Shown in pieces: positions 20,477 through 45,090 of a DNA stretch of 52,429 nt. The stretch is taken from IMG/VR virus record IMGVR_UViG_3300032296_002061, positions 1 to 52,429 of that record; one strand, written 5' to 3'. Within the stretch, counting starts at the first letter, position 1; each line of letters opens with the position of its first letter. The notes beneath the pieces were generated by a model. It made no database searches. It saw only the letters and a list, made by a program, of their open reading frames with translations, and was not told where the DNA came from. The position numbers and the translations under genes are program-made. The stretch comes from a virus.

Positions 20477-20515
20477 TTGCAACTAAATAGCTTTAGCCAT
20501 ACGCTGTTTGTATGG
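20473..20515 (+). promoter_or_regulatory. Palindrome and promoter-like sequence placing the RNA start at the next ATG
   Basis: TTAGTTGCAACTAA at 20473-20486 is a perfect palindrome. It contains TTGCAA (20477-20482), which is 17 nt from TACGCT (20500-20505), a fair -35/-10 pair. The ATG of the next gene at 20512 is 7 nt further, about where transcription would start, and it has no Shine-Dalgarno site. CCATAC (20497) and GTATGG (20510) also pair across the start codon. Confidence 0.4.
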
Positions 20516-20847
20516 CGAAAGACGATACGCACATTCCACCTGAGTCTGTTGCTGCTGCGGCCCGTCGTGGTCTGGCGCTGCGCGAGAAGCAGTCACCGTC
20601 GAATCGTGGCGGCACGGAGGTCGGTCTTGCGCGGGCCAAGCAGTTGGCCAATCGTGAGCCGGTGAGTGAGTCGACGATGGCTCGCATGAACAGCTTCTTT
20701 GCGCGCCATGCAGTGGACGCCAAGGGTGAGGGCTGGGGCGAGGACAGTAAGGGTTGGCAGGCGTGGCTTCTGTGGGGCGGCAATCCAGGTCGTAGCTGGG
20801 CACAGCAGATTGCCAAGGGCCGTCTGAAGAAGATGCAGGAGAAGTAG
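20512..20847 (+). CDS. Conserved phage protein ending in an IAxxRL motif (111 aa)
   Basis: Residues from about 50 on follow a pattern known in many phage hypothetical proteins: SESTMARMNSFFARHAVD, GWQAWLLWGGNPGRSW and a basic end. The C terminus is QQIAKGRLKKMQEK, one of eight copies of the IAxxRL motif in this genome. No Shine-Dalgarno site precedes the ATG. Location before the virion block, and the motif, suggest association with the head, but this is inference. Confidence 0.75.
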   Translation: MAKDDTHIPPESVAAAARRGLALREKQSPSNRGGTEVGLARAKQLANREPVSESTMARMNSFFARHAVDAKGEGWGEDSKGWQAWLLWGGNPGRSWAQQIAKGRLKKMQEK

Positions 20848-20849
20848 CC

Positions 20850-21002
20850 ATGCCTTTCAAGTCGCAAGCTCAGCGCGGATTTATGTACGCTAAGCATCCT
20901 GAGATTGCCAAGCGGTGGGAAAAGGAAACGCCTAAGGGCAAGCTTCCTGAGCACGTAATGCAATCAATCGCCAAGGAACGCTTGGCGAAGATGAAGAAAT
21001 AG
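20850..21002 (+). CDS. Small conserved phage protein with IAxxRL motif (50 aa)
   Basis: The ATG at 20850 follows the previous stop by 2 bp. The sequence MPFKSQAQRGFMYAKHPEIA continues into a WEKETPKGKLPEHV block, a short protein type common beside virion genes of many phages. The end is SIAKERLAKMKK, carrying the same motif as the preceding gene. Strongly basic; perhaps a head-packaged or DNA-contacting peptide. Confidence 0.75.
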   Translation: MPFKSQAQRGFMYAKHPEIAKRWEKETPKGKLPEHVMQSIAKERLAKMKK

Positions 21003-21078
21003 TATTGACGAACTTTTTGGTTTGTGGCAAGCGTGCCTCACGCCGGCAGTTCGGCCCCTCACACTAGGAGAATAGACA

Positions 21079-21807
21079 ATGGCTAATTTCGCTTCTAAGG
21101 AGGGAACGCTCGGTGCAGGCGTTGCCCAGACTTTCAACTTCAAGGCTCTGCTTGGCGTGAACGCCACGTCGCTGACCTACAGCAACGACAGTGCCTCTTC
21201 GACCCATCAGCTTTCGATCGACGGTTTTACGTTCACCGTGAAGCCCAGCGAGAGCCGTGTGATCAGCGGCGTGGAGAACTGGGAGGTTCTGACGATCGGT
21301 GGTGACGGTGGCTCGACCGGCCCGTATCGCTGCTATGCCACTAGCTCGGTGGTTCCGGCGACGATCGACAAGCCGTATGGCGGTCCCATCACCACTGCTG
21401 GTCTGGCTGACGACTCGGTGACCGACGCCAAGCTGGCGGTGGGCGCGCACGTGACTGCGGTGGCTGGCTCGCCGTTCCCGTGTCAGGTGATTGTGGTTGA
21501 CGTGGCGAACGCCGCTGGCGCTCAAGACCTGACCGGCCTTGTTGGCAAGCATGAGTTGCTTCATGCTTATGCCACGTTCGCTGCGCCGGCTGCTGGTACC
21601 AAGCTGGAGATTCAGACCGCTGGTGGCGCCGCCACCGTGGCTACGATTACGGCTGGTGCGATTACTGCTGGCACTACCGTGTTCGCGAATCCGATTGACG
21701 CGACCGCAGCCATTTTCGCTTCGGGCGCGACTATCCGTGTTAACCGGACTCTCGCTGGCGGCTCGTCGCTTTCGCGTCTGGTGCTTGTGTTCATGAAGGT
21801 CGCCTAA
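21079..21807 (+). CDS. Beta-rich protein, probable virion surface or decoration protein (242 aa)
   Basis: ATG at 21079 with AGGAGAA upstream. The N-terminal ~90 residues match the whole of the next protein (pattern MAxFAxxExTL, LxYxNDSA, TFTV, IGG, YR). The C-terminal ~140 residues are Ala/Gly/Thr-rich beta sequence. No tail-fibre collagen repeats. Head-fibre or decoration function fits composition and position near structural genes; not proven. Confidence 0.75.
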   Translation: MANFASKEGTLGAGVAQTFNFKALLGVNATSLTYSNDSASSTHQLSIDGFTFTVKPSESRVISGVENWEVLTIGGDGGSTGPYRCYATSSVVPATIDKPYGGPITTAGLADDSVTDAKLAVGAHVTAVAGSPFPCQVIVVDVANAAGAQDLTGLVGKHELLHAYATFAAPAAGTKLEIQTAGGAATVATITAGAITAGTTVFANPIDATAAIFASGATIRVNRTLAGGSSLSRLVLVFMKVA

Positions 21808-21826
21808 TCAGCAAGGAGGCTAAGTC

Positions 21827-22126
21827 ATGGCAAGCTTTGCTGCACAGGAGTCCACGCTTGTGGCCAATACCGCTCAGTTCTTCTTCTTCAAGAAGGAACT
21901 GGGTGGCTTTGGTGCGCAGTCGCTGGTCTACATGAACGACAGCGCCAACATCCATACGCTTCAGCTTGATAACGGTTCCACCTTCACGGTGGCCGGCGGC
22001 AAGCAGCGTGTGGTGACGGGCCTGTCGGAGTCGACCGTGCTCAAGATTGGTGGCAACGCTGCTAGCCAAGGCGCCTATCGTCTTGCCGCTAGCTCGGAGC
22101 TTGAGCCGCCAATCATCGAGTTGTAA
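21827..22126 (+). CDS. Beta-rich protein, paralogue of the N-terminal domain of 21079 (99 aa)
   Basis: ATG at 21827 after AAGGAGG. It aligns along its full length with residues 1-90 of the preceding protein: MASFAAQESTL with MANFASKEGTL, VYMNDSANIHTLQLD with TYSNDSASSTHQLSID, and STFTV with FTFTV. One gene probably arose from the other by duplication with gain or loss of the C-terminal domain. It ends just before a strong terminator. Confidence 0.8.
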   Translation: MASFAAQESTLVANTAQFFFFKKELGGFGAQSLVYMNDSANIHTLQLDNGSTFTVAGGKQRVVTGLSESTVLKIGGNAASQGAYRLAASSELEPPIIEL

Positions 22127-22151
22127 GATCCTTTTGGGGGATCACATCAAG

Positions 22152-22188
22152 GCCCGTCTGGACGTTCCAGGCGGGCTTTGGTGTTTTT
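22152..22188 (+). terminator. Rho-independent terminator
   Basis: GCCCGTCTGGA and TCCAGGCGGGC (11 pairs, one G-U) with a 3-nt loop, followed by TTTGGTGTTTTT. It ends the rightward transcript after 22126. In the leftward direction no T-run follows the stem, so it is one-way. Confidence 0.9.
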
Positions 22189-22191
22189 GGC

Positions 22192-23036: not shown

Positions 23037-23055
23037 CCCGTCACCTCCTTGGCGC

Positions 23056-23084
23056 AGATTGCACCCCTTTGCGCGGGTTGTCAA
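23056..23084 (-). promoter_or_regulatory. Promoter-like sequence of the recombinase cassette
   Basis: On the leftward strand TTGACA (23084-23079) is a perfect -35 box and CAATCT (23061-23056), 17 nt later, a weak -10 box. Related decamers GTGCAAAAGG and GCGCAAAGGG lie on either side of the -35 box, suitable as operator sites for the HTH protein. Confidence 0.45.
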
Positions 23085-23140
23085 CCTTTTGCACAAAGGT
23101 GCTTGCCAATAGGTCTAAACGTGCGATATGGTGCGGGTGC

Positions 23141-25518: not shown

Positions 25519-25675
25519 CAGGGCTGCTGGCCCCAAGAAGGCTGGTCCTTCTGACCGTGTGCGTGTGGCGCTGGAGAAAGCGGCGTCTGCAATCGAGGCC
25601 GAGCGCCGTCGCAAGCGCACGGTTGTAGATATTGGTGTTGAGCCTGACTCGGAAGAGGGCGACGGTGAACGATAA
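25073..25675 (+). CDS. Hypothetical protein before the large terminase (200 aa)
   Basis: The ATG at 25073 is preceded by CAGGAG at good spacing. The N-terminal 80 residues are Ser/Thr/Gly/Pro-rich and probably disordered; the C-terminal half is helical (FALTRSHSRLSVSDLNHIGM, RVRVALEKAASAIEAERRRK) with an acidic end. Its 3' end overlaps the terminase start by 11 bp. Position and size fit a small terminase subunit, but no HTH is evident, so this stays open. Confidence 0.65.
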   Translation: MSKLGNINQPPDSSLRDISSRFVEPTFHQDSSGTETSTSGPQEPGQPSTNPGLIEGSSAGSFSSTLKPSTTAMDPMLLRRMQSEDGALELPALSGTDLASFALTRSHSRLSVSDLNHIGMSLMKDAVAQEKPDHRAAAAVFSVMAQVNSRAAGPKKAGPSDRVRVALEKAASAIEAERRRKRTVVDIGVEPDSEEGDGER

Positions 25676-27346: not shown

Positions 27347-28195
27347 ATGCCTGTTCCTAGTGGCACGATGGCGCAAATTATGAAGGACATTACTGCGGAG
27401 GCTGCGGCTGCTGCTGCGCCTGCGCCGGAGGTGTCTGCGTCGGAGTCTACCTCTAACTACACCGCTGAAAGCTCGGCCTCCCCAGTCGAGTCGGCGTCGT
27501 CTGGCTCGGAGGCCAACCCCTCTGGTGCCGACCAGGCGGCGTCTGCGGTGCAGCCTGCTGAGCGTCATCCTCAGCGTGTGTCGTGGTCTAGGTATGAGAC
27601 GCTGATGCAGGAGCATCGGCAGGCTCTGTCGTCGATGGACTCGATGCAGCAGAAGCTTGAGGATTTGGAGGCGCGGCTGACTCAGCAAGTTGCGCAGGCC
27701 GACCCGAAGGCTGCGGCTCCTCAGCGTGGCGAGTCTCAGGGTGATTGGTTGCAGCGGATGCTGGACGAGGGCGAAGAGGTCAACCCGAAGTTGGTTGAGC
27801 AGATTCGTTCGCTTGAGGGCAAGTTGGAGCAGATGAACCAGTCGGTTCAGATGCACAACCAGCGGTGGCAGAACGTGGAGTGGGCGCAGGCCAACGCGGC
27901 TTACGACCAGAACATGAGCAAGCTCCAGTCCTACTGCCCCAAGTGGGATGAAGAACGTCTGACGACGATGATTGCCAACGGCGTCACGCCGCGCATGGTT
28001 GTTGCCATGTACCGTGATGTGTATGGTGACGCGCCGTCGCAACAGGCTCCTGCGCAGGTTGCGCAGGTTCAGCGCGCCGCTCCCCCGCGCATCGATGGCC
28101 CGTCTGCTCCTGCTCAGAATCTGGGCAACGAGCCGATGACCAAAGAAAACTACTTGAAGTGGGTGCGCGGAGAGTTCAATAACAAGATGCACTAA
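27347..28195 (+). CDS. Capsid scaffolding protein (282 aa)
   Basis: ATG at 27347 with CGGAGG upstream. The N-terminal 75 residues are Ala/Ser/Pro/Glu-rich and disordered, followed by a coiled coil (QKLEDLEARLTQQVAQ, QIRSLEGKLEQMNQSVQMHN) and a C-terminal helical end with a basic KWVRGEFNNKMH. Acidic disordered start, central coil and basic C-terminal hook directly before the major capsid gene are the signs of a podovirus scaffold. No protease motif is seen. Confidence 0.85.
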   Translation: MPVPSGTMAQIMKDITAEAAAAAAPAPEVSASESTSNYTAESSASPVESASSGSEANPSGADQAASAVQPAERHPQRVSWSRYETLMQEHRQALSSMDSMQQKLEDLEARLTQQVAQADPKAAAPQRGESQGDWLQRMLDEGEEVNPKLVEQIRSLEGKLEQMNQSVQMHNQRWQNVEWAQANAAYDQNMSKLQSYCPKWDEERLTTMIANGVTPRMVVAMYRDVYGDAPSQQAPAQVAQVQRAAPPRIDGPSAPAQNLGNEPMTKENYLKWVRGEFNNKMH

Positions 28196-30168: not shown

Positions 30169-30603
30169 ATGGCACCGATGTACGACGAAGACGAAGACAT
30201 CTGGACCGGCGCTGGACTCAGCAAGGAAATCGCTCGTCAGCGACTTGCAGAGCGGCAGCGTCAAGCTCCTGAAGTTTCCGGTATGGATCGTGCAGTAGGC
30301 GCCATGAAGGGGGCAGCCGGTGGCGCAAGCACTGGCGCAAGCCTTGGTTCCTTTTTCCCAGGCATCGGAACTGCAATCGGTGCCGGTGTTGGTGCTGTCG
30401 CTGGCGGTTTGGGTGGTGCGCTTACTGCAAGCCCATCTGAGAAAGCGCCATCCGCATCGCAGGTTGAGCAAGGCATGTCGACTGCTAAGAAGGCATACAA
30501 GGAAGCCAAGTACCCCGGCATCACTCAGGCCTTGAAGGAAACTGCGGAAGACTCTAATCTCGACCTTGCCGACTTTGCCGAAGATATGGGGTATAGCGGC
30601 TAA
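30169..30603 (+). CDS. Glycine-zipper protein with IAxxRL motif (144 aa), probable internal virion protein
   Basis: ATG at 30169 after AGGAGG. An acidic start is followed by SKEIARQRLAERQRQ, the IAxxRL motif. Residues ~42-85 form a Gly/Ala zipper (GAAGGASTGASLG, GTAIGAGVGAVAGGLGG), as in proteins that insert into membranes. The end is acidic and helical. Gly-zipper proteins beside portal genes are often ejected with DNA to form a channel in the host membrane; this role is inferred. Confidence 0.75.
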   Translation: MAPMYDEDEDIWTGAGLSKEIARQRLAERQRQAPEVSGMDRAVGAMKGAAGGASTGASLGSFFPGIGTAIGAGVGAVAGGLGGALTASPSEKAPSASQVEQGMSTAKKAYKEAKYPGITQALKETAEDSNLDLADFAEDMGYSG

Positions 30604-30618: not shown

Positions 30619-32631
30619 ATGCAAACGTCCCTCACCATCGACGACCAGCAGCAAGACCTCTGGAATCCTGCCGAGTCGCAGAAGTCTTCCATCGAGTACG
30701 ATTGGAACGACCCCAACGACCCTCCGTCGCTTAAGCCGCCGGAGATCGCCCGCATGTGCAGCCAGTTCTACAACGAGATGGCGCCCATGCAGCGCCTCTG
30801 GTGGCTGTGCCGCGATGTGATTACGAACTTCCGCGCCTACACGCCAAGCGACATCGTGATTCGCGCCGGCATGGAAATGGCGTACTTCAATCGCGTGCGT
30901 GACGTTAGCTTCAACATCACGCTGCCGCAGTTTCGCAATGCCTCGGCCCGTCTGGAGATGACCCACCCATCGTGGGGCGCAATCGCTGCGAGCGACTCCA
31001 TTGACGACCTGATGCGTGCCTCTGCCGATGAGCAGGCTCTGCATTATTACTGCCGCCGTGGCGAAGTGCCTTATGCCGCCATGGAGATGGTCGACTGGGG
31101 CATTATGTTCGGCACCAGCGCCATGCTGGCTGTCATGGACGGCGACAATCTCAAGCCTGAAGTCTTTGGCCCAGACCGCATCCGTGCAGAACCTGCCATT
31201 GCTAGGCCGGAAGATAGTCGCTTCCTCGCTGTGTCGCGTGTGACTACTAAGTCGCAGTTGAAGCAGAAGTTTCCTGACAAGGAAGACGTTATCAACCAAG
31301 CGCCGCCTCCGCTTCAGCAGTTGAACTGGTGGAGTGGTTATCAGCGCATGGCGCCTGACCGCATCGAGGTGCTGGAAGTCTATTGCCGCAGCGGCCACTG
31401 GTTCTTGATGTGTGGCAGCGGCGGCGCTGTGCTTGCGTCTGGCTGGACTCCGCAACGATGTATGCCGCTTGAGATTCACAAGTACGGCAGCGTACCGTTC
31501 GACTTCTGGGGCGTTGGTCTGGTTGAGCAGGCGCTTCCAGGTCAGTATGCGTACAGCGCGAGCTGGAACCAGATTCTGACCAATGCCCGGTTGATGAGCA
31601 ATCCGAAGATTCTCATCCCGCACAACTCAGGGATTGCGCCAGATGCGTTTACATCGCGTGCGGGTGAGAAGGTATATTACCGCCAAGGCATGGCTCCGCA
31701 GCCTTGGCAAGGGTTGCCACTGCCGCAATATGCAGTGCAGTTGCCGGCGTCGGCTGCTTCTGCTCTTGCTGACTCGACCGGCATTCACGGCGCGTCGCAG
31801 GGCAAGCGCACGCCTGGCGTCGTTACTGGTCGAGCGGTTGAGGCAATTGTTTCTAACGACGAAGTGCAATTCGGAATCACCAAGCGCAACATCAAGCGAT
31901 TGATGGAGCGTCATGGTCGCACGGCCCTTCTCTACATGCAGGCATACTACCCGCAAGAGAAGTTTGTTCGTCAGTTCGATCGTTATGGTTCGGCGATCGG
32001 CACGATGGTTCGCAGCGGCGACTTGTCGCAAGACCCGCAGGTGTTCATCGAGGCCGACACGTTGTTCCGCGATGACGTGGAAGCTCGGCAGCAGCGCATC
32101 ATGCAGTTTGCTCAGATGGGCGCGATTCCGCCGCCGGACGCTATCAAGCTGATTCAGAACAACCGCGATCCTCTGCGTCCGCAGAAGCCGATTGCAGATT
32201 ACGTGGCAGCCAAGCGTGCGCTGGATGCGGTGGTGCGTAACGGGTTTCAAGTGGTCGACACGACCAAGTTCAATCCTGATGGCACGCCTTCTATGCGCAA
32301 GACGGTGAAGTTCTATCCAAACGATAACTTCCCGATCTTTGCTGAGGTCGCTGGTCAGTACATTCGCTCGGATGAGTTCTACGCGCTGCCTGTTGAGAAG
32401 CAGGATGCGGTGGATATGTACTACCAAGACATCTTGAACATGATGGCTCCGCCGCCTGCGCCTGAAGCGCCGGGTGGTGGAATGCCTAGGATTCCGCAGC
32501 CGGTGGGCGCGCCCGCTGGCAACGCAAACGCGGTGGGTAATCAGCGCGCACCAAACGCCGCTCAAGAGATGGAGCGCCAACTTGAAGTCAAGGCCGCTCA
32601 GCCGGAAGGCGCGGACGAGTTCAGTAAGTAG
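30619..32631 (+). CDS. Portal protein (670 aa)
   Basis: Forms the dodecameric channel at the head vertex. ATG at 30619 following CTGGAG. Length and features match podovirus portals: an N-terminal segment ending in CSQFYNEMAPMQRLW, a large alpha/beta clip and wing, VEQALPGQYAYSASWNQILT and ADSTGIHGASQGKRTPG with RAVEAIVSNDEVQFGITKRN, typical of portal stems, and a Pro/Ala/Gly-rich C-terminal barrel tail. It lies after rather than before the capsid gene, as in several podovirus groups. Confidence 0.88.
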   Translation: MQTSLTIDDQQQDLWNPAESQKSSIEYDWNDPNDPPSLKPPEIARMCSQFYNEMAPMQRLWWLCRDVITNFRAYTPSDIVIRAGMEMAYFNRVRDVSFNITLPQFRNASARLEMTHPSWGAIAASDSIDDLMRASADEQALHYYCRRGEVPYAAMEMVDWGIMFGTSAMLAVMDGDNLKPEVFGPDRIRAEPAIARPEDSRFLAVSRVTTKSQLKQKFPDKEDVINQAPPPLQQLNWWSGYQRMAPDRIEVLEVYCRSGHWFLMCGSGGAVLASGWTPQRCMPLEIHKYGSVPFDFWGVGLVEQALPGQYAYSASWNQILTNARLMSNPKILIPHNSGIAPDAFTSRAGEKVYYRQGMAPQPWQGLPLPQYAVQLPASAASALADSTGIHGASQGKRTPGVVTGRAVEAIVSNDEVQFGITKRNIKRLMERHGRTALLYMQAYYPQEKFVRQFDRYGSAIGTMVRSGDLSQDPQVFIEADTLFRDDVEARQQRIMQFAQMGAIPPPDAIKLIQNNRDPLRPQKPIADYVAAKRALDAVVRNGFQVVDTTKFNPDGTPSMRKTVKFYPNDNFPIFAEVAGQYIRSDEFYALPVEKQDAVDMYYQDILNMMAPPPAPEAPGGGMPRIPQPVGAPAGNANAVGNQRAPNAAQEMERQLEVKAAQPEGADEFSK

Positions 32632-32639: not shown

Positions 32640-32996
32640 ATGGCTGGCAAGTATGATATGCGTGATATTGCTAAGGCTCGCCTCAAGAAGATGCAGGACA
32701 CCAAGGCCAAGGGCGGCAAGATGATGCCCAAGGGCAAGGAGTCCAAGTACGACTACGAGGATGAGGAAATGTCGGCTGACATGGAGGAGAAGACTCCTTC
32801 GCCGGAAGAGCACAACGCTCCCAAGCACCTCATGCACAAGGGTCATCCCGGCCTTGGTGGCGAGCATCGCGGCGGTCCCAAGGGCATCGCTGTGATGATT
32901 GGCATCGGCAAGCCCGGTATGCCCAAGCGTCACCCCGGTCTTGGCGAGTCGATCGAGGACGAGGAGCCCGTGATGGGCGGCAAGTACGGGCGGTAA
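32640..32996 (+). CDS. Lys/Met/Gly-rich small protein with IAxxRL motif (118 aa)
   Basis: ATG at 32640 with GGAGA upstream. The N terminus MAGKYDMRDIAKARLKKMQD holds the IAxxRL motif, followed by Lys-rich then Glu/Asp-rich stretches and repeated GHPGLGG / HPGLGE units. Low-complexity and charged, so probably disordered. Its place between portal and adaptor suggests a virion component, perhaps bound through the motif. Confidence 0.7.
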   Translation: MAGKYDMRDIAKARLKKMQDTKAKGGKMMPKGKESKYDYEDEEMSADMEEKTPSPEEHNAPKHLMHKGHPGLGGEHRGGPKGIAVMIGIGKPGMPKRHPGLGESIEDEEPVMGGKYGR

Positions 32997-32999: not shown

Positions 33000-34004
33000 A
33001 TGCACGCTGCACAGATTGCGAAATACATGCGGCAATTGATTGACGATCCTGGGATCGTCCGTCTGCCGTATTCTTTGCAGGCGACGATGCTTGAGATCGC
33101 CTACGAGGAGTTTCGCAATGTAGCGCCATGGGAAGTGTGGGAGCGTTACTACGAGCCTCCGCTTCTGACCGGTCAGTACAACGTCGACCTCGATGGCATC
33201 TTGTTCTACACCGACGCCGGCATTCCGCCGACCCAAGCTCTGGCCAGCCGTTTGACCCGCGTTACGCTGGTCAACCCTGGTGTGCAGGATGTTTGGATCT
33301 TCACGCTGGGTGGTGCTCCTGCACCGGGTGATACGTGCCGACTGACGATCAACGCGGTGAACTACGACTACGTTGTTCTCCCCGGCGACACGCTCGTCAC
33401 CATTGCTGCTGGTGTTGCTGCACTGGCTGCTGTTGATCCAATCTACTCGGTGACCAGCGTCGGCCCGGTGATTACCTGCACCAAGTACACTACCGGCCCG
33501 TCGCTCATCACGCCTACCTGCTCCTTCTTGGCGGGCGCTGGTACGGTCACGCCGTTTCACTCTGTCATCGGCCAAGCGTCCAACGGCATCCTTGGTACGT
33601 TTCAGCCGGCTACTAGCTGGGAGACGCTGGGCCAGATTCCCAACGCCAGCGCGGCCATGCTGTCGAACTATGCGTGGACTGGTCAGCGGTATTGGCTAGA
33701 CGGCAAGATGCTGCGCTTCAGTGTTCCGGTGAGCGGCCAGATTCAAATTTGGTACGTGCCTACGCAGACGGTGAACTGGCTGTCGGCCATCTCGTCGACC
33801 ACGCCGGTATTTGTGGACAACCTGACGCAGTTCCACGACATTATCGCTCTTCTGGCTGCCGAGCAGTACTACATTCAGCAAGCACAGCCCAACACATCTT
33901 TGGAGATGCAGTTGCGGCGTCGCATGGATAAGATGATGGAGTTCTTCGCTCAGTCGCGCACTGGCAAGGCATCGAGGTATGTGAACGAAGAATACCAGAG
34001 GTAG
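33000..34004 (+). CDS. Head-tail adaptor/gatekeeper protein with inserted domain (334 aa)
   Basis: ATG at 33000, 4 bp after the previous stop. Residues 1-90 and 195-334 resemble podovirus adaptor (tail-tubular-A-like) proteins: helices at the start (SLQATMLEIAYEEFRNVAPW), a beta core and a C-terminal helix pair (FHDIIALLAAEQYYIQQAQ, RRRMDKMMEFFAQSRTGKAS). Residues ~97-193 form an extra domain that recurs at 39924 (GDTCRLTINAVNYDYVVLPG). It lies between portal and nozzle, as expected for an adaptor. Confidence 0.78.
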   Translation: MHAAQIAKYMRQLIDDPGIVRLPYSLQATMLEIAYEEFRNVAPWEVWERYYEPPLLTGQYNVDLDGILFYTDAGIPPTQALASRLTRVTLVNPGVQDVWIFTLGGAPAPGDTCRLTINAVNYDYVVLPGDTLVTIAAGVAALAAVDPIYSVTSVGPVITCTKYTTGPSLITPTCSFLAGAGTVTPFHSVIGQASNGILGTFQPATSWETLGQIPNASAAMLSNYAWTGQRYWLDGKMLRFSVPVSGQIQIWYVPTQTVNWLSAISSTTPVFVDNLTQFHDIIALLAAEQYYIQQAQPNTSLEMQLRRRMDKMMEFFAQSRTGKASRYVNEEYQR

Positions 34005-34007: not shown

Positions 34008-37000
34008 GTGTCCAACATCGATAAAACCGCAGATGTCACTCCGAAGTCCGGCATGGACTTGCGCACCAATGCGCGCACTGATGGCACTCCGTTCATCCAG
34101 AATACCATCCCTCGTAACGGCGACTTCTGGGTTCGGCCAGGTTTCGGTCTTGTTCGCGAGTACGACACCAGCTTGGCCAACGGGCGATATGATGAGAACA
34201 AGTACGGTCTAGGCCCGTGCATCGGCGCGACCAACGTTCGCACCGCTTGGCAGACCGACCAGATTCTTTCGATTCACACGCTGTACGCATTTACTGGCGA
34301 CTTCTACGGTGGCCGACCTCGTTTGGTTGGTGGCTTGACGCCGATGTATGGTCGTCGCGCAACCTTCTTGGCAGGCGTCGTTGCGATCGTTCACGACTTG
34401 CACACCAATCGTAAGGTTGAGTTTGTGCTGCACGAACAGGACGCGAAGAAAGAGTTCTTGCCACAAGTCTACCCTAACTACTCAACTCGTTACGACGATG
34501 ACAATTCGACGTGGGCGATTCCTGCTCAAGAGCCGAAGTGGGCCATCTTTGCGCCGATGCAGACCGGTGTGGCGTTTGGAACCAAGGCGTTCAACATCGT
34601 GGTGTGCATCGATGGTATGGGCTTGTGGACGTACCGTCCGGTAGATTGCCCGATTGAGTGGAGCCGGCAGAACAACAGCTTGGATCGACCGTACCTTGGC
34701 CCATTCATGGGCGAGCAGGGCGCGTTCTCTCCGCTCAACTTGGCTGAAGGACTTCTGTCTGCTGCCGATGGTGCTGCTTACCTGACGACCAACGACATTG
34801 GCACGATTACAGCACAGTGTACGTGGAACGAAGATCGCATTATCTACGCTGCTGGCAATACGCTTTGGTTCTCCGACCCGTACATGCCGCAAGCGGTGCT
34901 GGCCGATAGCAACTACGTGGTTCCTACGTCTGACCCGATCACATGCGTAGCCCCACTGCGCTCTAGCGTCTTCATCGCAACTAGTGGCGGTAGGTGCTGG
35001 GCGTACAATCCTGCGCTTGGTAGCGCGGGCACAGCGGCTGTTGGCAGCTTGACCTCTATCTCGCTGACCAATGGCTGCGTAAACAATCGTGCTTATTGCG
35101 TGGGCAACGAAGGCGTATTCTTTGTTGACCACAACGGCGTGTTCTTGTGGACGGGCGGTGTGCAGCTTGTGTGGTTGTCGCGTCCGATCGATCGGCTGTG
35201 GGCAGACCCGCAATCGCTTGAGTTGCCGCTGACGGATTACTACCAGCACAACGGCACCACCAGCTTGACAAATGTCCAGTTGCCTGCGCGTCTTGATATG
35301 CGCGAGCAGATGCGGAGCGCCAGGTTGTGCTGGGACGATCCTCGCAAGGTTCTGTATTGCGTATGCGACGACATCACGCTGTGCTGGACGACCGATTATG
35401 GTTGGAGCGTGTGGTACTTTAAGACTCACGCTGGCAATGGCGCAGAGGTACAAGGCTTGGCCAACATCGCCACGCCGACTCTGGTGCCCTCGCGTAACGA
35501 TCTCTACTTGGTTGGTGGCCCAGACGAGACCATCTACATGGATGGTAAAGACCTTAAGATTGTGCAGGACAAAGCGTGCTATCTGCTCAAGCTTGGTCGT
35601 GGTGGTGCAATTGATCGGTCGACGTGCATGGATGCGGCCAGAACTGACGTGTATACCTGCACGCTTTCTGGTTACGTAGTGCCGTTTGATACGATCGAGA
35701 TTACGGTCGGCGTCAACACGTACAACTACAACATCAAGCCTGATGACGACTACGCTGCCACGTACAAGAAGTTTGCTGACGACATTCAAGCTGTAGGCGA
35801 TCCTGAGTACGACTTCATCGGCCAGCCTACCGGCATCGTGGCTGTAGCCAAGGTAGCCGGTACTCCAGCATCCGCTGTAGTCGCATTGATGACTGTAGGC
35901 GCTGGCGCGTTTACCTCGGCGCATACTCAAACGTCCACTAGCGCGAACCTGGTCACTGCCAACTTGGAAGACTGGCGCACGCCTCTGAGCGGTTGGCGCA
36001 TGTACGAGTGGGCAGGCGACGTGGCTACGGGCGCATTCTATCTCGGCCCACCCGTGGTTGCGCCTGCTGGGTTCCAACCGCCGCGTGGTGCTCCGGCAAC
36101 TACTGAAGCCACGTACTGGTGGCCTGTCGCTACCGGCTCGGTAGTGGCGCCACCCACGATTCTTAAACTTCACTTCACGTTCGATAACACGCGCTGGGAA
36201 CCTATCTGCGTGCCAGCCAATCCCGGCGACCCGCAGTATGGTGAGATTGCGGCGCTGTTCCCCAACGAGCGACTTGGTTCTATCTCTGGCTATAGACCCA
36301 ATACGCATGACGCAACGCATCAAATCTGCGTATACAACTCAGGCACAGGTACTGAGGGGCCTGGTGGTGACGAGATTCGGATTGACTTCGACGGAACCGG
36401 CGGTACGTGGACTTCAGCGCCTACGCTAAATGTTGGCGTCATTGGGCCTGACGTGCTGTTCTACATCGGCTTCCGTTACAAGGGCGCCGACTCCACGTTG
36501 TCGTTGCATCCGCAGCTTACAACGTTTATGCGGCAGGACTTCAACGGCTGCCAATTGTACGCTTGGCAATACGGTCGCTACCCGGTGCAATACTCTCAGC
36601 TTGCTGACCTACAACAGCCGGTCGACTGGGCGGTGAAGTCTCGCGAGTTTGAACTTAGCGGCTACCAGTTCACGGTGCGCGGCTTGTTCGTAACTGCGAT
36701 GCACATGGGCAACGGTACTGACGACGTGGTACCGGGCTGGCTTTACGGCCCGCTCAACACTGCGACCTCGACGGATTGGCGCGACTGGAGCGGACAGGCG
36801 CTGGACTTTGCGACTGTGCCACCGGGCAACAGCGCACAGAACGACATGTCTCCGTTCCCGCGCATGGTGCCGGCTACCACAGGTGGCGACCCGAATATCT
36901 ACGTTGACCCGACGCTCAAGACCTTTGGCAACATCGCTCGATGGGGCGATGCAGTCGACCCGACCAAGGGCAACTTACTCATCGACGACCCAGCCGTGGA

Positions 37001-37148
37001 CACGCTTGCGACGACCGATGGTAGCAAGGGTATGCGCGGCTCGGTGATGATTCACGGCACGATGAATGCGCCTGGCGAAGTAGTGAAACTGGGCCGCATC
37101 GAGGCTGCCATCAAGCAGGTTGGTCTGCGCCAGCGGTGGGGTAAGTAA
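34008..37148 (+). CDS. Tail nozzle-like beta-propeller protein (1046 aa)
   Basis: GTG start at 34008, 4 bp after the adaptor stop. Beta-propeller-like units are visible: IIYAAGNTLWFSDPYMPQAV, DPITCVAPLRSSVFIATSGG, FFVDHNGVFLWTGGVQLVWL, KVLYCVCDDITLCWTTDYGW, as in T7 gp12-type nozzle proteins. An inserted segment near 35650-35945 (VNTYNYNIKPDDDY) resembles the domain shared by 33000 and 39924. Beta-rich C-terminal ~450 residues may form fibre-docking parts. It would form the distal tube of the short tail and carry appendages. Confidence 0.85.
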   Translation: MSNIDKTADVTPKSGMDLRTNARTDGTPFIQNTIPRNGDFWVRPGFGLVREYDTSLANGRYDENKYGLGPCIGATNVRTAWQTDQILSIHTLYAFTGDFYGGRPRLVGGLTPMYGRRATFLAGVVAIVHDLHTNRKVEFVLHEQDAKKEFLPQVYPNYSTRYDDDNSTWAIPAQEPKWAIFAPMQTGVAFGTKAFNIVVCIDGMGLWTYRPVDCPIEWSRQNNSLDRPYLGPFMGEQGAFSPLNLAEGLLSAADGAAYLTTNDIGTITAQCTWNEDRIIYAAGNTLWFSDPYMPQAVLADSNYVVPTSDPITCVAPLRSSVFIATSGGRCWAYNPALGSAGTAAVGSLTSISLTNGCVNNRAYCVGNEGVFFVDHNGVFLWTGGVQLVWLSRPIDRLWADPQSLELPLTDYYQHNGTTSLTNVQLPARLDMREQMRSARLCWDDPRKVLYCVCDDITLCWTTDYGWSVWYFKTHAGNGAEVQGLANIATPTLVPSRNDLYLVGGPDETIYMDGKDLKIVQDKACYLLKLGRGGAIDRSTCMDAARTDVYTCTLSGYVVPFDTIEITVGVNTYNYNIKPDDDYAATYKKFADDIQAVGDPEYDFIGQPTGIVAVAKVAGTPASAVVALMTVGAGAFTSAHTQTSTSANLVTANLEDWRTPLSGWRMYEWAGDVATGAFYLGPPVVAPAGFQPPRGAPATTEATYWWPVATGSVVAPPTILKLHFTFDNTRWEPICVPANPGDPQYGEIAALFPNERLGSISGYRPNTHDATHQICVYNSGTGTEGPGGDEIRIDFDGTGGTWTSAPTLNVGVIGPDVLFYIGFRYKGADSTLSLHPQLTTFMRQDFNGCQLYAWQYGRYPVQYSQLADLQQPVDWAVKSREFELSGYQFTVRGLFVTAMHMGNGTDDVVPGWLYGPLNTATSTDWRDWSGQALDFATVPPGNSAQNDMSPFPRMVPATTGGDPNIYVDPTLKTFGNIARWGDAVDPTKGNLLIDDPAVDTLATTDGSKGMRGSVMIHGTMNAPGEVVKLGRIEAAIKQVGLRQRWGK

Positions 37149-37152
37149 TGGC
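37129..37152 (+). repeat. 24-bp direct repeat, first copy
   Basis: This 24-bp sequence spans the end of the nozzle gene and the start codon of the gene at 37148. It is identical to 37863-37886, which lies at the start of the gene at 37882. It marks a tandem duplication. Confidence 0.95.
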
Positions 37153-37861
37153 TGACAAGCATATTGCAGATCGAGCGATTGAGCATCTAAGGCAGGAAAT
37201 CGGCAAAAAGGGTCTTGAGCGTTACGACATGATTGATAGCGTCATCAATAAGCATTGGAACGAATATTACAATCGTTACGGGAAAGACCTTGAGAAGTGG
37301 CCGCGTGGAGAATATGAGCGTCTTCAAACGGAAACAGAAGGACTTGTTGATACCCTTACTCCACCGCACCTGAAGAAAGCATTTGACCAACTTGATGACC
37401 TAAGCGTTGTCGACCCCAACTGGCCAGACGCAGAACAGATGGTTCGCAAATATGGCCCCGATCTTGTTGCCCGCATGGAACGGGGTCAAATCCAACCAAT
37501 CGAAGAACCACGCGCCATAACCAAGCAACCAGCGCAACAATACGCGCCCGCTACACAATCCAAACCCGCGATCGTCATGCCTGTGCGCAAAACCGAAATT
37601 GCGCCAGCATTGCCTAAACAAACAGCGCAAAAACCAATTCAAGTCACGCCGCCGCGTCAACGCAAAACCGACAACCTTGAGCAACGAGTTGCTGGATTCT
37701 TTAGTGGACTTGAGAAAGAAGGTTACTGGAAGACGCCGACTCAAGACGACATTAACAAGCAGATTGCCCAAGAACGCTTGCGCAACATGGTGTACGATCA
37801 AAAGCGAAAAGAACAAGAGCCAGTATCATTGCCGGAAGACATCAATCGAACACAAGACTAG
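37148..37861 (+). CDS. Virion-associated protein, tandem paralogue 1 (237 aa)
   Basis: The ATG overlaps the nozzle stop by one base (TAATG). Three parts: a helical N-terminal domain, a Pro/Gln/Lys-rich linker (residues ~115-175) and a C-terminal block GFFSGLEKEGYWKTPTQDD that leads into NKQIAQERLRNMVY with the IAxxRL motif. It matches the next gene in the same order (PDLVARMER, QPIEEPRA, GLEKEGY). Codon use is more AT-rich than in the capsid genes. Function unknown; internal head protein is a guess from the motif. Confidence 0.78.
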   Translation: MADKHIADRAIEHLRQEIGKKGLERYDMIDSVINKHWNEYYNRYGKDLEKWPRGEYERLQTETEGLVDTLTPPHLKKAFDQLDDLSVVDPNWPDAEQMVRKYGPDLVARMERGQIQPIEEPRAITKQPAQQYAPATQSKPAIVMPVRKTEIAPALPKQTAQKPIQVTPPRQRKTDNLEQRVAGFFSGLEKEGYWKTPTQDDINKQIAQERLRNMVYDQKRKEQEPVSLPEDINRTQD

Positions 37862-37862: not shown

Positions 37863-37886
37863 GCCAGCGGTGGGGTAAGTAATGGC
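37863..37886 (+). repeat. 24-bp direct repeat, second copy
   Basis: Identical to 37129-37152. Here the bases that encode the last residues of the nozzle gene are untranslated leader, so they came with the duplicated segment. Confidence 0.95.
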
Positions 37887-38607
37887 CGAGCCAGACTACA
37901 GCAAGAGTTGGTATCAGCGCAGCGGCGGCAAACTACCGTTCAGCGAGTCGCTTGCCAATCATCTGCGCAAAGAGCTTGGGCCTAACGCTGTGCATCGGTA
38001 TGATGCATACCATGATGTTTTCAACAAGTTGCGCGATCAATATGCAGACAAGTACGGCGATTGGGAAGATTGGCCGGAATCCGAATATCTAAAGTTCAAG
38101 GCTGAAGACGCTAGTTTTCGACCCATGTTTGTTCGACCACATGAGCAGAAGTTGTTTGAACAACTAGAAAGCTTAGAAGCCACCGACCCTATGTGGGAAC
38201 CAGAAACAACCGAGCGCACGCTGCGCCAGCAATATCCAGATTTGGTGGCACGCATGGAACGAAAGCAGGTTCAACCAATCGAAGAACCACGCGCCCCGGT
38301 CATGCAACCCAAGCCACCGGTCATGCCGCCTGTGCGCAAAGCTGAGCCGGTGCCCCCACCGATGAAGTCACCGGCCCAGAAGCCCGCGCAGGTTATGCCA
38401 CCCAAAGCAAAGCCCGCAGGAATGGAACAGCGGATGGCAAACTTTCTGGGTGGTCTGGAGAAGGAAGGCTACTTGAAGATGCCAACGCAAGCTGAGATTG
38501 CTCAGGAACGGCTGCGCAACATGATGCAAGAGCGTGAGCGTGAGTTGCGTGCGCGAGATGAAGTGCCGGTATCGCTGCCCGAAGCAGTCAACCCAACAGG
38601 GCGGTAA
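37882..38607 (+). CDS. Virion-associated protein, tandem paralogue 2 (241 aa)
   Basis: Shares domain order and key blocks with the previous gene: PDLVARMERKQVQPIEEPRA, a Pro/Lys-rich linker, FLGGLEKEGYLKMPTQAEIA leading into IAQERLRNMMQE, and a final VSLPE. The N-terminal domain is more diverged. A 24-bp leader identical to that of copy 1 precedes the ATG. The pair arose by tandem duplication and has since diverged. Confidence 0.78.
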   Translation: MAEPDYSKSWYQRSGGKLPFSESLANHLRKELGPNAVHRYDAYHDVFNKLRDQYADKYGDWEDWPESEYLKFKAEDASFRPMFVRPHEQKLFEQLESLEATDPMWEPETTERTLRQQYPDLVARMERKQVQPIEEPRAPVMQPKPPVMPPVRKAEPVPPPMKSPAQKPAQVMPPKAKPAGMEQRMANFLGGLEKEGYLKMPTQAEIAQERLRNMMQERERELRARDEVPVSLPEAVNPTGR

Positions 38608-39923: not shown

Positions 39924-42020
39924 ATGGCAAAGCAGTTTCCGGTCAAGCGATATGCCCGTGGCGTGAAGGTGACCAAGCAGCACCTGAACGATCCATTGAC
40001 CGACATCCAGAATGCTGCTGAGGCGGCTGGTGTAGAGAACTCGATCGAGCATTTGGCGCGCAACAAGGTGTCGTGGGTATTGCCGTACACTGGCCCAGCC
40101 TCTACCGAGTACAAGGATTATGGTCTTAAAGGTTATCCAATGGCTATGTGGCCGTTTGTGATGCCTGCGTTCCAGCAGTTGTTTTGGCGAGGAACACTTG
40201 AAGACCCACGGTACCCGGTGACGTTGAGCGAGTTCTCGTTGTCGATTGACCAGCGAGCAGAGCCCAAGGGTGTTGCTGGTTATGGAGCAGCGTTTCCGGT
40301 CAGCGTTGGTGATAATGTCGAAACCGACATGAGCCGCTACAGCATGACCATTCGGTTGCTAGAGCGTCAGCCATCTCTGTTGACTGGTGAGACAGTTGAC
40401 TACGAAGAGGTTGGCAAGTGGGAGATTGATGGTGTCACTGCGTTTGGCATTCAGCAAAGCGCAACAGACGGCACTGCTGGCAACGGTGTGGCCCGCGCCA
40501 ACCCACTTGTGATCGCTGACCAGAACATTCCGATTCGCCCGTGGAACACGTACTTCTGGGAGATTACCGGGGCGCGACTGTATGAGACGCCAGACTTGGG
40601 TGTGAAGGACAAGTGGACGTTTACGGTGGGCGGCACCCCGGTTGGTGGCGCGCCTGGCGTTGGCGATGTTTGCCGGCTAACGATCAACGGCAACACATAC
40701 AACTACCAAGTTCCTGCTGGCTGGACGCTTGCTGGCATTGCTGCTGGTGTTGCTGCTGCTGCCGCTGCTGACCCACTCTACACGGTAACTGCTGCTGGCC
40801 CGGTGATTACCGCAGAAGAGACGGTTGCATCCAATAACGTCAACACGCTGACGTGCGTGTTTCTTAGTCCTAGTGGTACGGGTACTGGCACGGTATTCCC
40901 GCAGCACGTAGCGGTTGGTGAAGCTGGCACGACGGTATATCCGCTTGAGTTCGTGTCGTTGCACTTGTGCGCTACGTTTGATTCTTTGCTGACTGTGCGC
41001 GATAAGCAGGGCGACTTTGGCCTATACCCGGCTGAGCCAGGTTCCAAGCCAATCCAAAACCTGCCGATTGTGCATGATGGTTGGAAGGTAGGAACCAACA
41101 TCCCGTTGACTCCAGTTGTGGCTGATGCGTTGATGACCGGCGATGACGTGCAGGATGCTATGCACGGCTTTGACCTTGCGCTGCGTGAGCGTGCGGGCAG
41201 CGGCTACGGCACTGGCTACGGCCCGCTTGCCAGCCCACTGGAAGCGAGTAATCGACCGGTGCAAGAGTTGATGGCCAACGACTCGCACTACTCGATGATT
41301 ATGGTTCCGATGTGGAGCGGCCAGTATCGCGAGTCTGTGCGCAAGCAGGATGTGGCTTCTGCTGGTCTGCCTTATGTTGGCGACTTGGAAGAAAACCGGA
41401 TTACCGAAGACGTGTTTGTGTTTCCGGTGCCGGAAGGCTTTGTGTTGCACCATGCGTTTGCGGTGTGGAATGGCTACAGCCCGCCGACCACTGTGTATCC
41501 AGATCGCTTGCAACCTGGGACTTGGCCCACTCAGGAAGACTACGAACAAGAGATTGGCATCATCCTAAACTCGGGCTGGCATGGCGACGATTACAAGCAT
41601 CAGCAGGTAGCGTATCTCAAGTGGAATGGGGCTCCTGCGCCAGACGCCTTTACCTACGAGAACTGGTTGCTCGATGAGTACACCGGAGTCGAGGGTGGTG
41701 TTGCTTGGCGATTGCTTCAGATTCCGCTGGTGAACAACAACAACGCATGGACTGCGCGCACATGGTTTAGCAGTGGCCCGCCGTTCTACATGGGCAAGTC
41801 CAACACGATGACTGAGGCGCGTGCGGATTGCGGCACGTTGCCTACCGCATTTGGTGGCAACCGATTTGATCCACCGTTGACCAACGGTCGCGAGAATGTG
41901 CTTGAGATTCGCTGGCAGAAAGACTTGCAGAACTACGACTTGCTTGAAGATACCGATACGATCATCGGCCAAGGTGGCGAGTGGGTAATTCTCTGCGGTC
42001 GCCAAACCGTAACTACCTAA
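39924..42020 (+). CDS. Large virion appendage protein with inserted domain (698 aa)
   Basis: ATG at 39924, 6 bp after the previous stop. Three zones: residues 1-229 (VKVTKQHLNDPLTDIQNAAE then beta), 230-334 the inserted domain shared with the adaptor gene (GDVCRLTINGNTYNYQVPAG, then LYTVTAAGPVIT), and 335-698 a large beta-rich part with many Trp/Tyr. No enzyme motif recognised. Likely a tail fibre or head-surface protein; its partner is the 39105 protein by position. Confidence 0.75.
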   Translation: MAKQFPVKRYARGVKVTKQHLNDPLTDIQNAAEAAGVENSIEHLARNKVSWVLPYTGPASTEYKDYGLKGYPMAMWPFVMPAFQQLFWRGTLEDPRYPVTLSEFSLSIDQRAEPKGVAGYGAAFPVSVGDNVETDMSRYSMTIRLLERQPSLLTGETVDYEEVGKWEIDGVTAFGIQQSATDGTAGNGVARANPLVIADQNIPIRPWNTYFWEITGARLYETPDLGVKDKWTFTVGGTPVGGAPGVGDVCRLTINGNTYNYQVPAGWTLAGIAAGVAAAAAADPLYTVTAAGPVITAEETVASNNVNTLTCVFLSPSGTGTGTVFPQHVAVGEAGTTVYPLEFVSLHLCATFDSLLTVRDKQGDFGLYPAEPGSKPIQNLPIVHDGWKVGTNIPLTPVVADALMTGDDVQDAMHGFDLALRERAGSGYGTGYGPLASPLEASNRPVQELMANDSHYSMIMVPMWSGQYRESVRKQDVASAGLPYVGDLEENRITEDVFVFPVPEGFVLHHAFAVWNGYSPPTTVYPDRLQPGTWPTQEDYEQEIGIILNSGWHGDDYKHQQVAYLKWNGAPAPDAFTYENWLLDEYTGVEGGVAWRLLQIPLVNNNNAWTARTWFSSGPPFYMGKSNTMTEARADCGTLPTAFGGNRFDPPLTNGRENVLEIRWQKDLQNYDLLEDTDTIIGQGGEWVILCGRQTVTT

Positions 42021-42035
42021 GAACCTCTGGTCAAG

Positions 42036-42051: not shown

Positions 42052-42075
42052 ACACTGCGCACGTGGAGGATGGCT

Positions 42076-42846
42076 ATGGCTGCTCAAGACGAAGATAGTT
42101 GGTTTGGCGACGATGTACCGGTTGCACAACCGAGCCAAAAGCCAAAGTCTGGTGCCAAGATGGTTGACGAGAGTTACTTTGGCACCTCAGATGAATATAT
42201 CCCCAGCACTGGCAAAGCTAAGACTCCAGAAGAAGACGCTTATCTAAAGCAATTTCAAGAGTCGCAAGCCGGTGTTCTTGGCAGTGCCGCCGGCCAGCTT
42301 GCTGCTACTCAGCTTGGTGCCAAGTACGCCAAGGGTGGCGCTGGTGCGCTTGAAGAACGGCAGAAGGGCGCCCTTGGCCGTTTGCGTGAGCAGTCTGGTC
42401 AAGCGTTTGCTGCCCAGCAGGCCCGTGGTGGTGGTGGATCGCTCGCTGGTATGCGTCAGTCGCAGCTTTCGCGTGGCGTGGCTGAAGGCCGGTTGATGGG
42501 CGATTTCGCTATGCAGAAGATTGCTCAACAGCGCCTTGCCGCCCAAGCTGAAAAGGAAGCCGCACAAGCTGCTGGCGAGTACGCAACGACGCAGCAGAAG
42601 CTCAAGCAAGCTGAGGCAGATCGCGCAAGAGCCCAATCTGAAGAGTATGGAAAGGCGGTTCAAGATATTCGGACTGAGTTCCAGAATCGAGTTGATGAAT
42701 CCGGTTGGTACGGTGAAGATGACCGAAAAGCTCTTGCCGCTTGGATTCAGAACACTTACGGCAACAGCCCGAATGCCGCTGTGCGTCAATACGCCAAAGA
42801 TGCCGCAGCCAATGTGCTTGCTGATACTGGTGACTTTGAGGGGTAA
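42076..42846 (+). CDS. Internal virion-type protein with IAxxRL motif (256 aa)
   Basis: GGAGG at 42065-42069 favours the ATG at 42076 over the one at 42070. An acidic start, then an Ala/Gln/Gly-rich segment (QAFAAQQARGGGGSLAGMRQ) and a helical region DFAMQKIAQQRLAAQAEKEA with the IAxxRL motif and coiled-coil character. Ala/Gln/Lys-rich helical proteins at this place in podoviruses are ejection proteins. It is the first of three such genes in a row. Confidence 0.75.
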   Translation: MAAQDEDSWFGDDVPVAQPSQKPKSGAKMVDESYFGTSDEYIPSTGKAKTPEEDAYLKQFQESQAGVLGSAAGQLAATQLGAKYAKGGAGALEERQKGALGRLREQSGQAFAAQQARGGGGSLAGMRQSQLSRGVAEGRLMGDFAMQKIAQQRLAAQAEKEAAQAAGEYATTQQKLKQAEADRARAQSEEYGKAVQDIRTEFQNRVDESGWYGEDDRKALAAWIQNTYGNSPNAAVRQYAKDAAANVLADTGDFEG

Positions 42847-42849
42847 TCA

Positions 42850-45090
42850 ATGCCACGCATCATCGACGTAGATACCGAAGCATTTGCTCCGACTTACCAG
42901 AAGGCTTACAAAGAGCGTGAGCCACTCGGTGATGTTTCGCGTCGTCGCATGGCAGCGGACTTGCAGCTCCTTGGCCAAGCCATGCCTTATGTCAGCGAGG
43001 GCATTAAGGGCATCGACCAGTACGTGGTGACGCCAATTCAGCAGGCGATGAAGGAAAGCCGCGAGGAAGAGTACAAAGCCAAGAAAGCGGGCGAGATGCC
43101 GTTTGAGATTAGCGAAACGACGAGGCAGAAGATCGCCAAACAGCGATTGGCCGAGAAGGAAAAGCAAAAGCCGTTCGATACCTCTGCTTGGGAAAAGGAA
43201 GCAGAGGAGATGTACGACATCACCAAGATGAAGGGCGCCCCAGACTTGGAAGCTCAGCGTCCAGATTACGGTGCTGTTGGCGAAGAAGCAGCCAAGATGT
43301 TCAGCGAAAAGCGTCCTGAATTTGGTGAGCTTAGCGTTCCGGTCGGCGAAGCCGGTACCGATGCGATGATCGCCCGTCAGCGCGTAGAGCAGCAAATGGC
43401 GCAACGGTTGAAGGAGCAAGAGCAGGCTGGCCCAGTTACTCGGCCAACGGTAATCGCTCGTCATCCCGTTACGGGTGAACTGCGTGCTGTCGCTGGTCAG
43501 CCAAGTGCCGGCTTGGAGCGCGGTAGCCCAGCTTATGAAATGGAAGTTTCTCGTCAGCGCACGGGATTGCCGCGCAAACCCGCTGCTGCCACCCCCGCCG
43601 AGCCTGCGCCTACCCGCATGATGCCCGAGCACCCGGTTCCGACCGGATACCAGTGGCCCGCCCGTGGGCGGTATACTGCGCCTGGCGCGCCGACTGAGGG
43701 CTTTGCTGGCGCTGAGGCTCCTGCCGAGCCTACGCAAACCGCGCAGATGGCCAAGACCGCTACCACCACTGCCCGTGCTGGTGCGCGTACCGAAGCAGAG
43801 CCTGTGGCTCCGACCGAGCCTGCCAAGCCCAAGACGCTGGCGACCGTGACGGATGACGAACTATCGGACGTGAAGCGTCGACTGGAGAAGATGGTCGAGC
43901 AAGATCCTGAAGACAAGGAACTTGCTAACCGTCTTGAGATGGTGAACTTGGAGCAGCGGCATCGCGGCGAGAAGATCGAATTTGAGGATTGGGCTCCGAT
44001 GGCCCGTGCTGCCGATACGGTAGAAGAGCAGCGCAAGGTCTTGGAGTTGGCCAAGCGCGTGCGGATGCCGGTCGAGGGATTTGAAAGCCTGCTGACCAGT
44101 CCGTTTGAGCGGGCCAAGCTTAAGGCGCTGGGCGCTAAGGGCGAGAAGGGCTTGTTCCCTGAAGTGGCGCGGCCGCTTACTAGCTGGGAGATTGATAAGA
44201 AGCAAACCGAGATTCGGATCAACCAGTTGAAGGCTCAAGGTCTATCGGACAAGCAAGCTGCTGACCAGGCTCTGGCCGAGAAGCGGCGGGCGGATGCGGG
44301 ATTGTCTCGTGCGAGAACCGAAACTGAAGAGACGTTGCGTGAGCCGCGATACGCAGCGGCTGCGGAAAAGCCTTTCCTTATGCACTCGCAAGAAGAACTT
44401 AACGAGGCAAAGCGACAAGAAGTGCTTGGCTTGTTGCCTAAGAAAATCCAGAAGTACGATGCCGATATTGCGCGATTGCGCAGGATGGCGGCAGCAAAGT
44501 CTGGTGGCCGGGGTCTTTCTAAGGAAGACATCGAATGGGCCAAGCTTTGGGAAAAGGATTGGGATAAGGCTGTTGATAATGCTGCCAATGTAGCCACAAC
44601 TGCTAAGCGAGAAGCTGTAACGTTGGAGCGTCAAGCCGCTGCGGCCCAGATGGAAGCCGAAGGAAAGGCTGGGGATTACAAGGAGTACGAGAAGATATTT
44701 GCCAAGATTTCTCCATACGATCCCAACTACGCAAAGGTTCAGGCTGACCTGTTTGAGAAACGCGCTGCGGCGGGTGCGGCTCAGCGTTCCGCTACCCTTG
44801 CCAAGGCTAACTTTGAAGCAGCACGAACAGCTTCTGGTGAAGCGCAGACTAAGCTGGAACAAGCGCAAAAAGCCGGTGATGAAGGCCGGCAGCACTTGCG
44901 GTTTATTTACGGTCGATCTGGCCCAGGTCGAGCAGAAGCGGGTGCGGCTCCTGCTGCTCCGACTGCTCCTGCCAAGCCGGCTACGACACCCGCTAAGGCT
45001 GCCGTTGCTCACAAGGAAGGCGACAAGTCCAAAGACAAAAATGGCAAACCAATTGTTTGGCATGACGGAAAATGGACCTACCCGGACTAA
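42850..45090 (+). CDS. Internal virion/ejection protein with IAxxRL motif (746 aa)
   Basis: ATG at 42850, 4 bp after the previous stop, after GAGGGG. Near the N terminus TTRQKIAKQRLAEKEKQK holds the IAxxRL motif. A Pro/Ala/Thr-rich middle (residues ~230-335) separates it from long coiled coils (VKRRLEKMVEQDPEDKELAN, AAQRSATLAKANFEAARTA). C terminus: Ala/Pro-rich linker then KNGKPIVWHDGKWTYPD. No enzyme domain seen. Size and coiled coils fit an ejection protein of the short-tailed phage type. Confidence 0.78.
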   Translation: MPRIIDVDTEAFAPTYQKAYKEREPLGDVSRRRMAADLQLLGQAMPYVSEGIKGIDQYVVTPIQQAMKESREEEYKAKKAGEMPFEISETTRQKIAKQRLAEKEKQKPFDTSAWEKEAEEMYDITKMKGAPDLEAQRPDYGAVGEEAAKMFSEKRPEFGELSVPVGEAGTDAMIARQRVEQQMAQRLKEQEQAGPVTRPTVIARHPVTGELRAVAGQPSAGLERGSPAYEMEVSRQRTGLPRKPAAATPAEPAPTRMMPEHPVPTGYQWPARGRYTAPGAPTEGFAGAEAPAEPTQTAQMAKTATTTARAGARTEAEPVAPTEPAKPKTLATVTDDELSDVKRRLEKMVEQDPEDKELANRLEMVNLEQRHRGEKIEFEDWAPMARAADTVEEQRKVLELAKRVRMPVEGFESLLTSPFERAKLKALGAKGEKGLFPEVARPLTSWEIDKKQTEIRINQLKAQGLSDKQAADQALAEKRRADAGLSRARTETEETLREPRYAAAAEKPFLMHSQEELNEAKRQEVLGLLPKKIQKYDADIARLRRMAAAKSGGRGLSKEDIEWAKLWEKDWDKAVDNAANVATTAKREAVTLERQAAAAQMEAEGKAGDYKEYEKIFAKISPYDPNYAKVQADLFEKRAAAGAAQRSATLAKANFEAARTASGEAQTKLEQAQKAGDEGRQHLRFIYGRSGPGRAEAGAAPAAPTAPAKPATTPAKAAVAHKEGDKSKDKNGKPIVWHDGKWTYPD

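Follow-up and report, generated by a model that had tools for sequence, protein, structure and literature searches.

The window analyzed here is a 52.4-kb virus record (IMG/VR record IMGVR_UViG_3300032296_002061, all 52,429 nucleotides), in which eight proteins share a peptide of about 12 residues with the general form of roughly M-[QK]-x-I-A-x-x-R-L-x-x-M. All eight sites lie in + strand genes of the virion half. The motif is real, it is independent of position in the protein, it is selected at the level of the residues, and it is confined to these proteins and to the clade of this phage. We believe, with a probability of roughly 0.6, that it is a docking tag that would bring proteins into the procapsid, with the scaffold as the probable dock, as in the internal proteins of T4 and, as has been proposed, the ejection proteins of P22. 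That the motif binds as a helix, that the tagged proteins are packaged, and that the scaffold is the receptor are what we infer from the analyses below.

Recurrence of the motif in the window

The first-pass annotation had listed eight copies of a hexamer, IA[KRQ]xRL, and all eight are found where it placed them, in frame, on the + strand and inside real genes: IAKGRL at 20809, IAKERL at 20967, IARQRL at 30229, IAKARL at 32667, IAQERL at 37763 and 38497, IAQQRL at 42520, and IAKQRL at 43132. It was also right that the codons vary from copy to copy, that the copies occur in N-terminal, middle, and C-terminal positions, and that the host proteins are otherwise mostly unrelated: among the eight, blastp of 25 window proteins links only 37148 with 37882 (we name genes by their start positions). 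A short peptide is thus shared by otherwise unrelated proteins of the virion module, as with the capsid targeting sequence (CTS) of T4-type phages. In the virion-half proteins, the eight observed sites compare with 0.029 expected, and the maximum in 5000 composition-preserving shuffled sets was 2.

Because this pattern had been chosen after looking at the sequence, we also ran an unbiased search over every four-residue gapped pattern with a span of at most 9, keeping one member of the 37148/37882 pair. I-A-x-x-R-L ranks first among all such patterns, occurring in 7 families versus 0.17 expected, with a score of 9.1. The next-best pattern in the window scores 5.5, shuffled sets give 3.2-5.8, the left half of the window gives 4.8, and five other phages give 5.0-6.5. 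No pattern reaching the window's 9.1 was found in the named phage with portal similarity (only 24% identity) or in three terminase-related phages.

The hexamer itself is present as described, but the motif reaches further. Across 30 aligned copies from the window and its relatives, the extended form is approximately M-[QK]-[KD]-I-A-x-x-R-L-x-x-M, with Q, K, or R at position -2 in 29 copies and M at +8 in 18. A, R, and L are present in 30/30 copies, an invariance that is partly by construction, as the copies were gathered with a pattern demanding these three residues; the orthologue comparison below is the independent measure. The first position is I in 26/30 copies and V, L, or M in the others, so it is not fixed as I, and the third position is not limited to K, R, or Q, with G, S, N, A, and L also occurring in orthologues. 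In each of the tagged proteins a single copy scores strongly (24-37 bits), and all other window proteins tested score below 11 bits, including the portal, the putative scaffold, the putative capsid protein, and a 2075-aa (amino acid) protein. A weaker second motif in 42070, RQKGALGRLREQ, scores 15.6 bits with a matrix built from the window sites only. Restriction to the virion half holds for this longer motif but not for the bare hexamer: the leftward genes contain two IAxxRL matches, both in the endolysin-like gene 2133-2768, with scores too low for the longer motif (9.5 and -1.7 bits, versus 24-37).

Retention in relatives and selection

Relatives were fetched through portal similarity (85-97% identity) and comprise G002, G004, G007, and smaller fragments. 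For a held-out test, we built a matrix from the eight window sites alone and ran it over all six frames of these relatives. Every match of at least 16 bits is an orthologue of one of the tagged eight, and no other protein in these relatives matched at that threshold. In 1.11 Mb of unrelated phage loci, the same matrix gave no matches of 20 bits or more and two of 18 bits or more. Since the relatives share ancestry with the window, this test measures retention in each orthologue and not independent gain.

We compared 22 orthologue pairs, in 21 of which the motif could be aligned. At the four core residues, 80/84 comparisons give identity (95%), versus 55% over the remainder of these proteins, and all four exceptions are I changed to V, L, or M. 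Among identical residues, the codon has changed synonymously in 50% of cases in the core and 45% elsewhere. Synonymous sites change freely while the core residues are kept, so this is not general conservation, and a DNA- or RNA-level signal is rejected on the same grounds, as it is by the codon differences between copies. In the 746-aa protein, the surroundings of the motif are eroded in G007 and ETPEQKIASERLFKM is kept. In the 37148/37882 family, the motif persists despite a local insertion beside it. As in short linear docking motifs, the residues are conserved above their surroundings while context and position vary. At the level of sequence, we consider a shared peptide under selection, independent of fold and position, to be well supported, and the motif behaves as a clade-specific tag.

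The same small set of IMG/VR contigs was recovered each time whether we queried with single portal and terminase sequences, the portal profile, or the capsid protein, and no more distant relatives appeared. Bacterial and archaeal genomes scanned with the portal profile gave no relatives, and a motif-derived DNA pattern run across all viral contigs gave a single, unrelated match.

Two domains with and without the tag

The small domain of 20850 is found in hundreds of viral contigs. From 500 confirmed contigs we retained the best 80, of which 79 loci are unrelated to the window clade, and the motif is absent from the domain in 79/79 of these. Most of the unrelated copies end in a short lysine-rich tail or run into other domains. 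In the window clade, all four orthologues (4/4) have the motif, on linkers of differing length (KLPEHV-MQSIAKERL, KLPEHVGSKPTMQDVAKERL, KLPEHVGEKEDGIQKIAKERL). Given this variation in linker length, the eroding flanks in other tagged proteins, and the untagged state of the unrelated domains, the motif behaves as a tag. A fusion at L085:9989-11275 joins a 20850-type domain to a protein whose metallopeptidase (M48) and glycine-zipper matches are weak, which suggests that injected or internal proteins can carry this domain as well.

The closest copy of the 20512 domain outside the clade, in L116, is 75% identical up to residue 100 and then ends without a motif. Elsewhere, this phrog_2859-type domain is part of Peptidase_S78 prohead proteases (L120:1469-2377, L123:4381-5550), a DUF2213 head maturation protease (L117:4875-6470), a Phage_capsid protein (L124:8247-9833), and annotated major capsid proteins of Roseobacter and Synechococcus phages. 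Judging by these fusions, it is a mobile head-associated module that has been joined to head proteins of several kinds. The window clade has it as a free-standing, tagged protein, unlike the copies that form part of a protease or capsid polypeptide, and head association would be common to both arrangements.

The tagged proteins

All features in this section are on the + strand, and bit scores are from the window-only matrix. The first tagged protein, of 111 aa (20512-20847), is the phrog_2859-type domain, with AQQIAKGRLKKM near its C terminus (20800-20835, 29.4 bits) kept in three relatives. It is followed by the 50-aa protein 20850-21002, the small mobile domain MPFKSQAQR..MYAKHPEIAKRW, in which the motif is a C-terminal extension (MQSIAKERLAKM, 20958-20993, 32.7 bits) and the preceding linker varies in length between relatives. 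The 144-aa protein 30169-30603 has a glycine zipper and is weakly similar to P22 gp7 (PF25688, 18.7 bits, below the 28-bit cutoff); its motif, SKEIARQRLAER, is near the N terminus (30220-30255, 23.9 bits). Downstream of the portal gene, the 118-aa protein 32640-32996 has MRDIAKARLKKM at its N terminus (32658-32693, 28.7 bits).

The proteins of 237 aa (37148-37861) and 241 aa (37882-38607) are tandem paralogues, 45% identical, and both copies in the window keep the motif, as NKQIAQERLRNM near the C terminus of the former (37754-37789, 30.2 bits) and QAEIAQERLRNM in the latter (38488-38523, 27.6 bits). With tblastn, the two together find a single region in each long relative. The last two tagged proteins are neighbors: the 258-aa protein 42070-42846, with MQKIAQQRLAAQ in its middle (42511-42546, 28.4 bits), and the 746-aa protein 42850-45090, with RQKIAKQRLAEK in a divergent N-terminal region (43123-43158, 27.9 bits), where the flanks have diverged in a relative and the motif is kept.

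Predicted structure of the motif

An AlphaFold2 model of 37882, run on five sequences, has a confident helical domain at residues 20-126, a disordered linker, and a helix at 203-226 that contains the C-terminal motif and is predicted with moderate confidence. In the AlphaFold2 model of 42070, which has long helices, the motif falls within one of them. On an ideal helix, the conserved motif positions gather on one face. A Foldseek search with the 37882 model gave no significant match.

Candidate receptors

The phage has a P22-type portal protein (30619-32631, + strand), with matches to PF16510 (44.6 bits, cutoff 26.1) and PF23899 (35.7 bits), both above cutoff. The terminase gene starts at 25632, and the + strand gene 27347-28195, between it and the putative capsid gene at 28205, would encode the scaffolding protein; the assignments of scaffold and capsid protein come from gene position only, with no useful match in Pfam or PHROGs. 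All three candidates are without the motif. In relatives, identity is 67-80% for the putative scaffold, 87-91% for the portal (in three long relatives), and 91-96% for the capsid protein. Because a fixed motif needs a fixed partner, any of these three would be suitable, being conserved at 67-96%. By analogy with P22 and T4, we favor the scaffold.

The 2075-aa protein (45117-51344, + strand) is probably an internal or ejection protein, judging by its size and the gene order; it has no match in Pfam or PHROGs. It lacks the motif and is far less conserved than the terminase, portal, and capsid protein. Apart from the weakly gp7-like 30169, no homologues of the ejection proteins gp7, gp16, and gp20 were recognized.

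What the motif may do

In the mechanism that we propose, the motif would be a transferable docking helix that tags a set of proteins for the procapsid of a P22-type short-tailed phage. Tagged proteins would present the helix on a terminus, on a flexible tether, or as part of a long helix, and the partner of the helix would be a conserved part of the inside of the procapsid: most likely the scaffolding protein, with the portal or the capsid protein as alternatives. These mostly unrelated proteins would then be carried inside the head and probably ejected with the DNA. The link to the head is provided by the fusions of the 20512 domain to head proteins and by the resemblance, though weak, of 30169 to gp7. 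In its fuller form, to which we give about an even chance, the proposal is that eight or more proteins, mostly unrelated, enter the head in this podovirus clade by means of a portable, uncleaved helical tag at either end or internally, so that about 12 added residues would recruit domains fused elsewhere to head proteins.

Several observations weigh against this. The motif in 20512 overlaps a native helix-like stretch (WSRQIVE-RL) of other phages' copies, so this copy may be an adapted native helix segment. The helical periodicity of conservation is suggestive only (p = 0.065), and the eight copies do not exceed permutations in Eisenberg hydrophobic moment, which leaves a classical amphipathic helix unsupported. 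The 2075-aa protein, expected by analogy to be internal, has no motif (best score 10.7). The first-pass annotation had suggested a docking peptide that defines the set of head-packaged proteins. Its selected, shared peptide stands, and a docking or cargo role is the best reading of the sequences, but the motif does not mark all cargo, being absent from the probably internal 2075-aa protein and likewise from the portal.

The strongest competitor to a docking tag, though an unlikely one, is that through the motif the ejected or internal proteins attach to one another, or to the 2075-aa protein, and build an internal core or trans-envelope conduit. The genes 42070, 42850, and 45117 are adjacent and large, in a layout like that of the P22 ejection genes, long helices are predicted in 42070, and one tagged protein is weakly gp7-like. 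However, the 2075-aa protein would be a poor partner for a fixed motif, with an identity of 35% in G004 and, across part of the protein, 55% in G002, and no counterpart found in the G007 fragment, and proteins of 50 and 118 aa would be odd parts of a conduit. We rate somewhat lower the binding of a host factor (a chaperone, protease adaptor, polymerase, or the membrane), during assembly or after ejection. Reuse of a short linear motif across many proteins would fit it, but the motif is restricted to one phage clade and to virion-half genes, and loci fetched through the 20850 domain have no enrichment (31 genes versus 27.3 expected, one clade locus being included).

T4-type internal proteins are cleaved beside their targeting peptide (PMC7411985), which raises the idea that a phage or host protease cuts at the motif, as a signal for processing or degradation. 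We consider this improbable: no prohead protease was recognized in those virion proteins that we ran against Pfam and PHROGs, and the motif of 42070 lies well inside a conserved helical region. Chance recurrence of a charged helical sequence, which the abundance of A, R, K, and E helices in the window proteins might favor, is refuted by the held-out test; the count of 8 versus 0.03 expected, the top rank of the pattern, and the selection on its residues also leave it with almost no weight.

Comparison with known systems and significance

The T4 internal proteins are diverse and united only by a conserved targeting sequence that brings them into the scaffolding core (PMC3012670); for IPIII, its first 10 residues are enough for targeting (PMC9026906). 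A docking tag would resemble the T4 CTS (IPI-IPIII, Alt) in that a short peptide is common to different internal proteins, and the T4 peptide places its proteins in the procapsid by way of the scaffolding core (PMC3012670, PMC9026906, PMC7411985). The T4 CTS, however, is an N-terminal propeptide of about 10-20 residues that is removed by the protease gp21, whereas the motif described here has another sequence, is N-terminal, in the middle, or C-terminal, and no prohead protease was recognized in the virion proteins scanned. The motif would work like a T4 CTS but, because it is not bound to the N terminus, is not one.

The ejection proteins of P22, which can assemble without the portal, have been proposed to dock at the inner end of its scaffold helix bundle (PMC12005531). 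Our phage is like P22 with its gp7, gp16, gp20, and scaffold gp8 in having a P22-type portal and a weakly gp7-like glycine-zipper protein in the tagged set. It is unlike P22 in that the tagged set also includes small accessory domains and its cargo has no confident homology to gp7, gp16, or gp20. In the literature we searched, coverage of which is incomplete, we found no shared peptide tag in P22-type phages or P22 ejection proteins.

How short-tailed phages choose the proteins of the head interior is largely unknown, and by the literature we found, a defined targeting peptide is known only in T4-type phages. The motif is most likely an address label, and by that same literature it would be the first such label outside the T4-type phages. 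With a portable tag, sequence alone would tell which proteins are cargo in an uncultured phage, and the tag predicts that small domains of the 20512 and 20850 types act inside virions. Clade-specific shared motifs may offer a general route to the injected proteins of other phages, and the tag could serve for loading protein nanocages.

Other features of the window

A domain of about 110 residues is common to putative tail proteins, with residues 94-194 of 33000-34004 and 226-335 of 39924-42020 being 51% identical, and a weaker copy occurs in 34008-37148 (residues 535-664). The protein encoded at 21079-21807 belongs to a family that begins MANF..KE.TL...AQ.FNF and has adjacent copies in the relatives L014 (5383 and 6138) and L016 (5499 and 6248); these are possibly decoration proteins.

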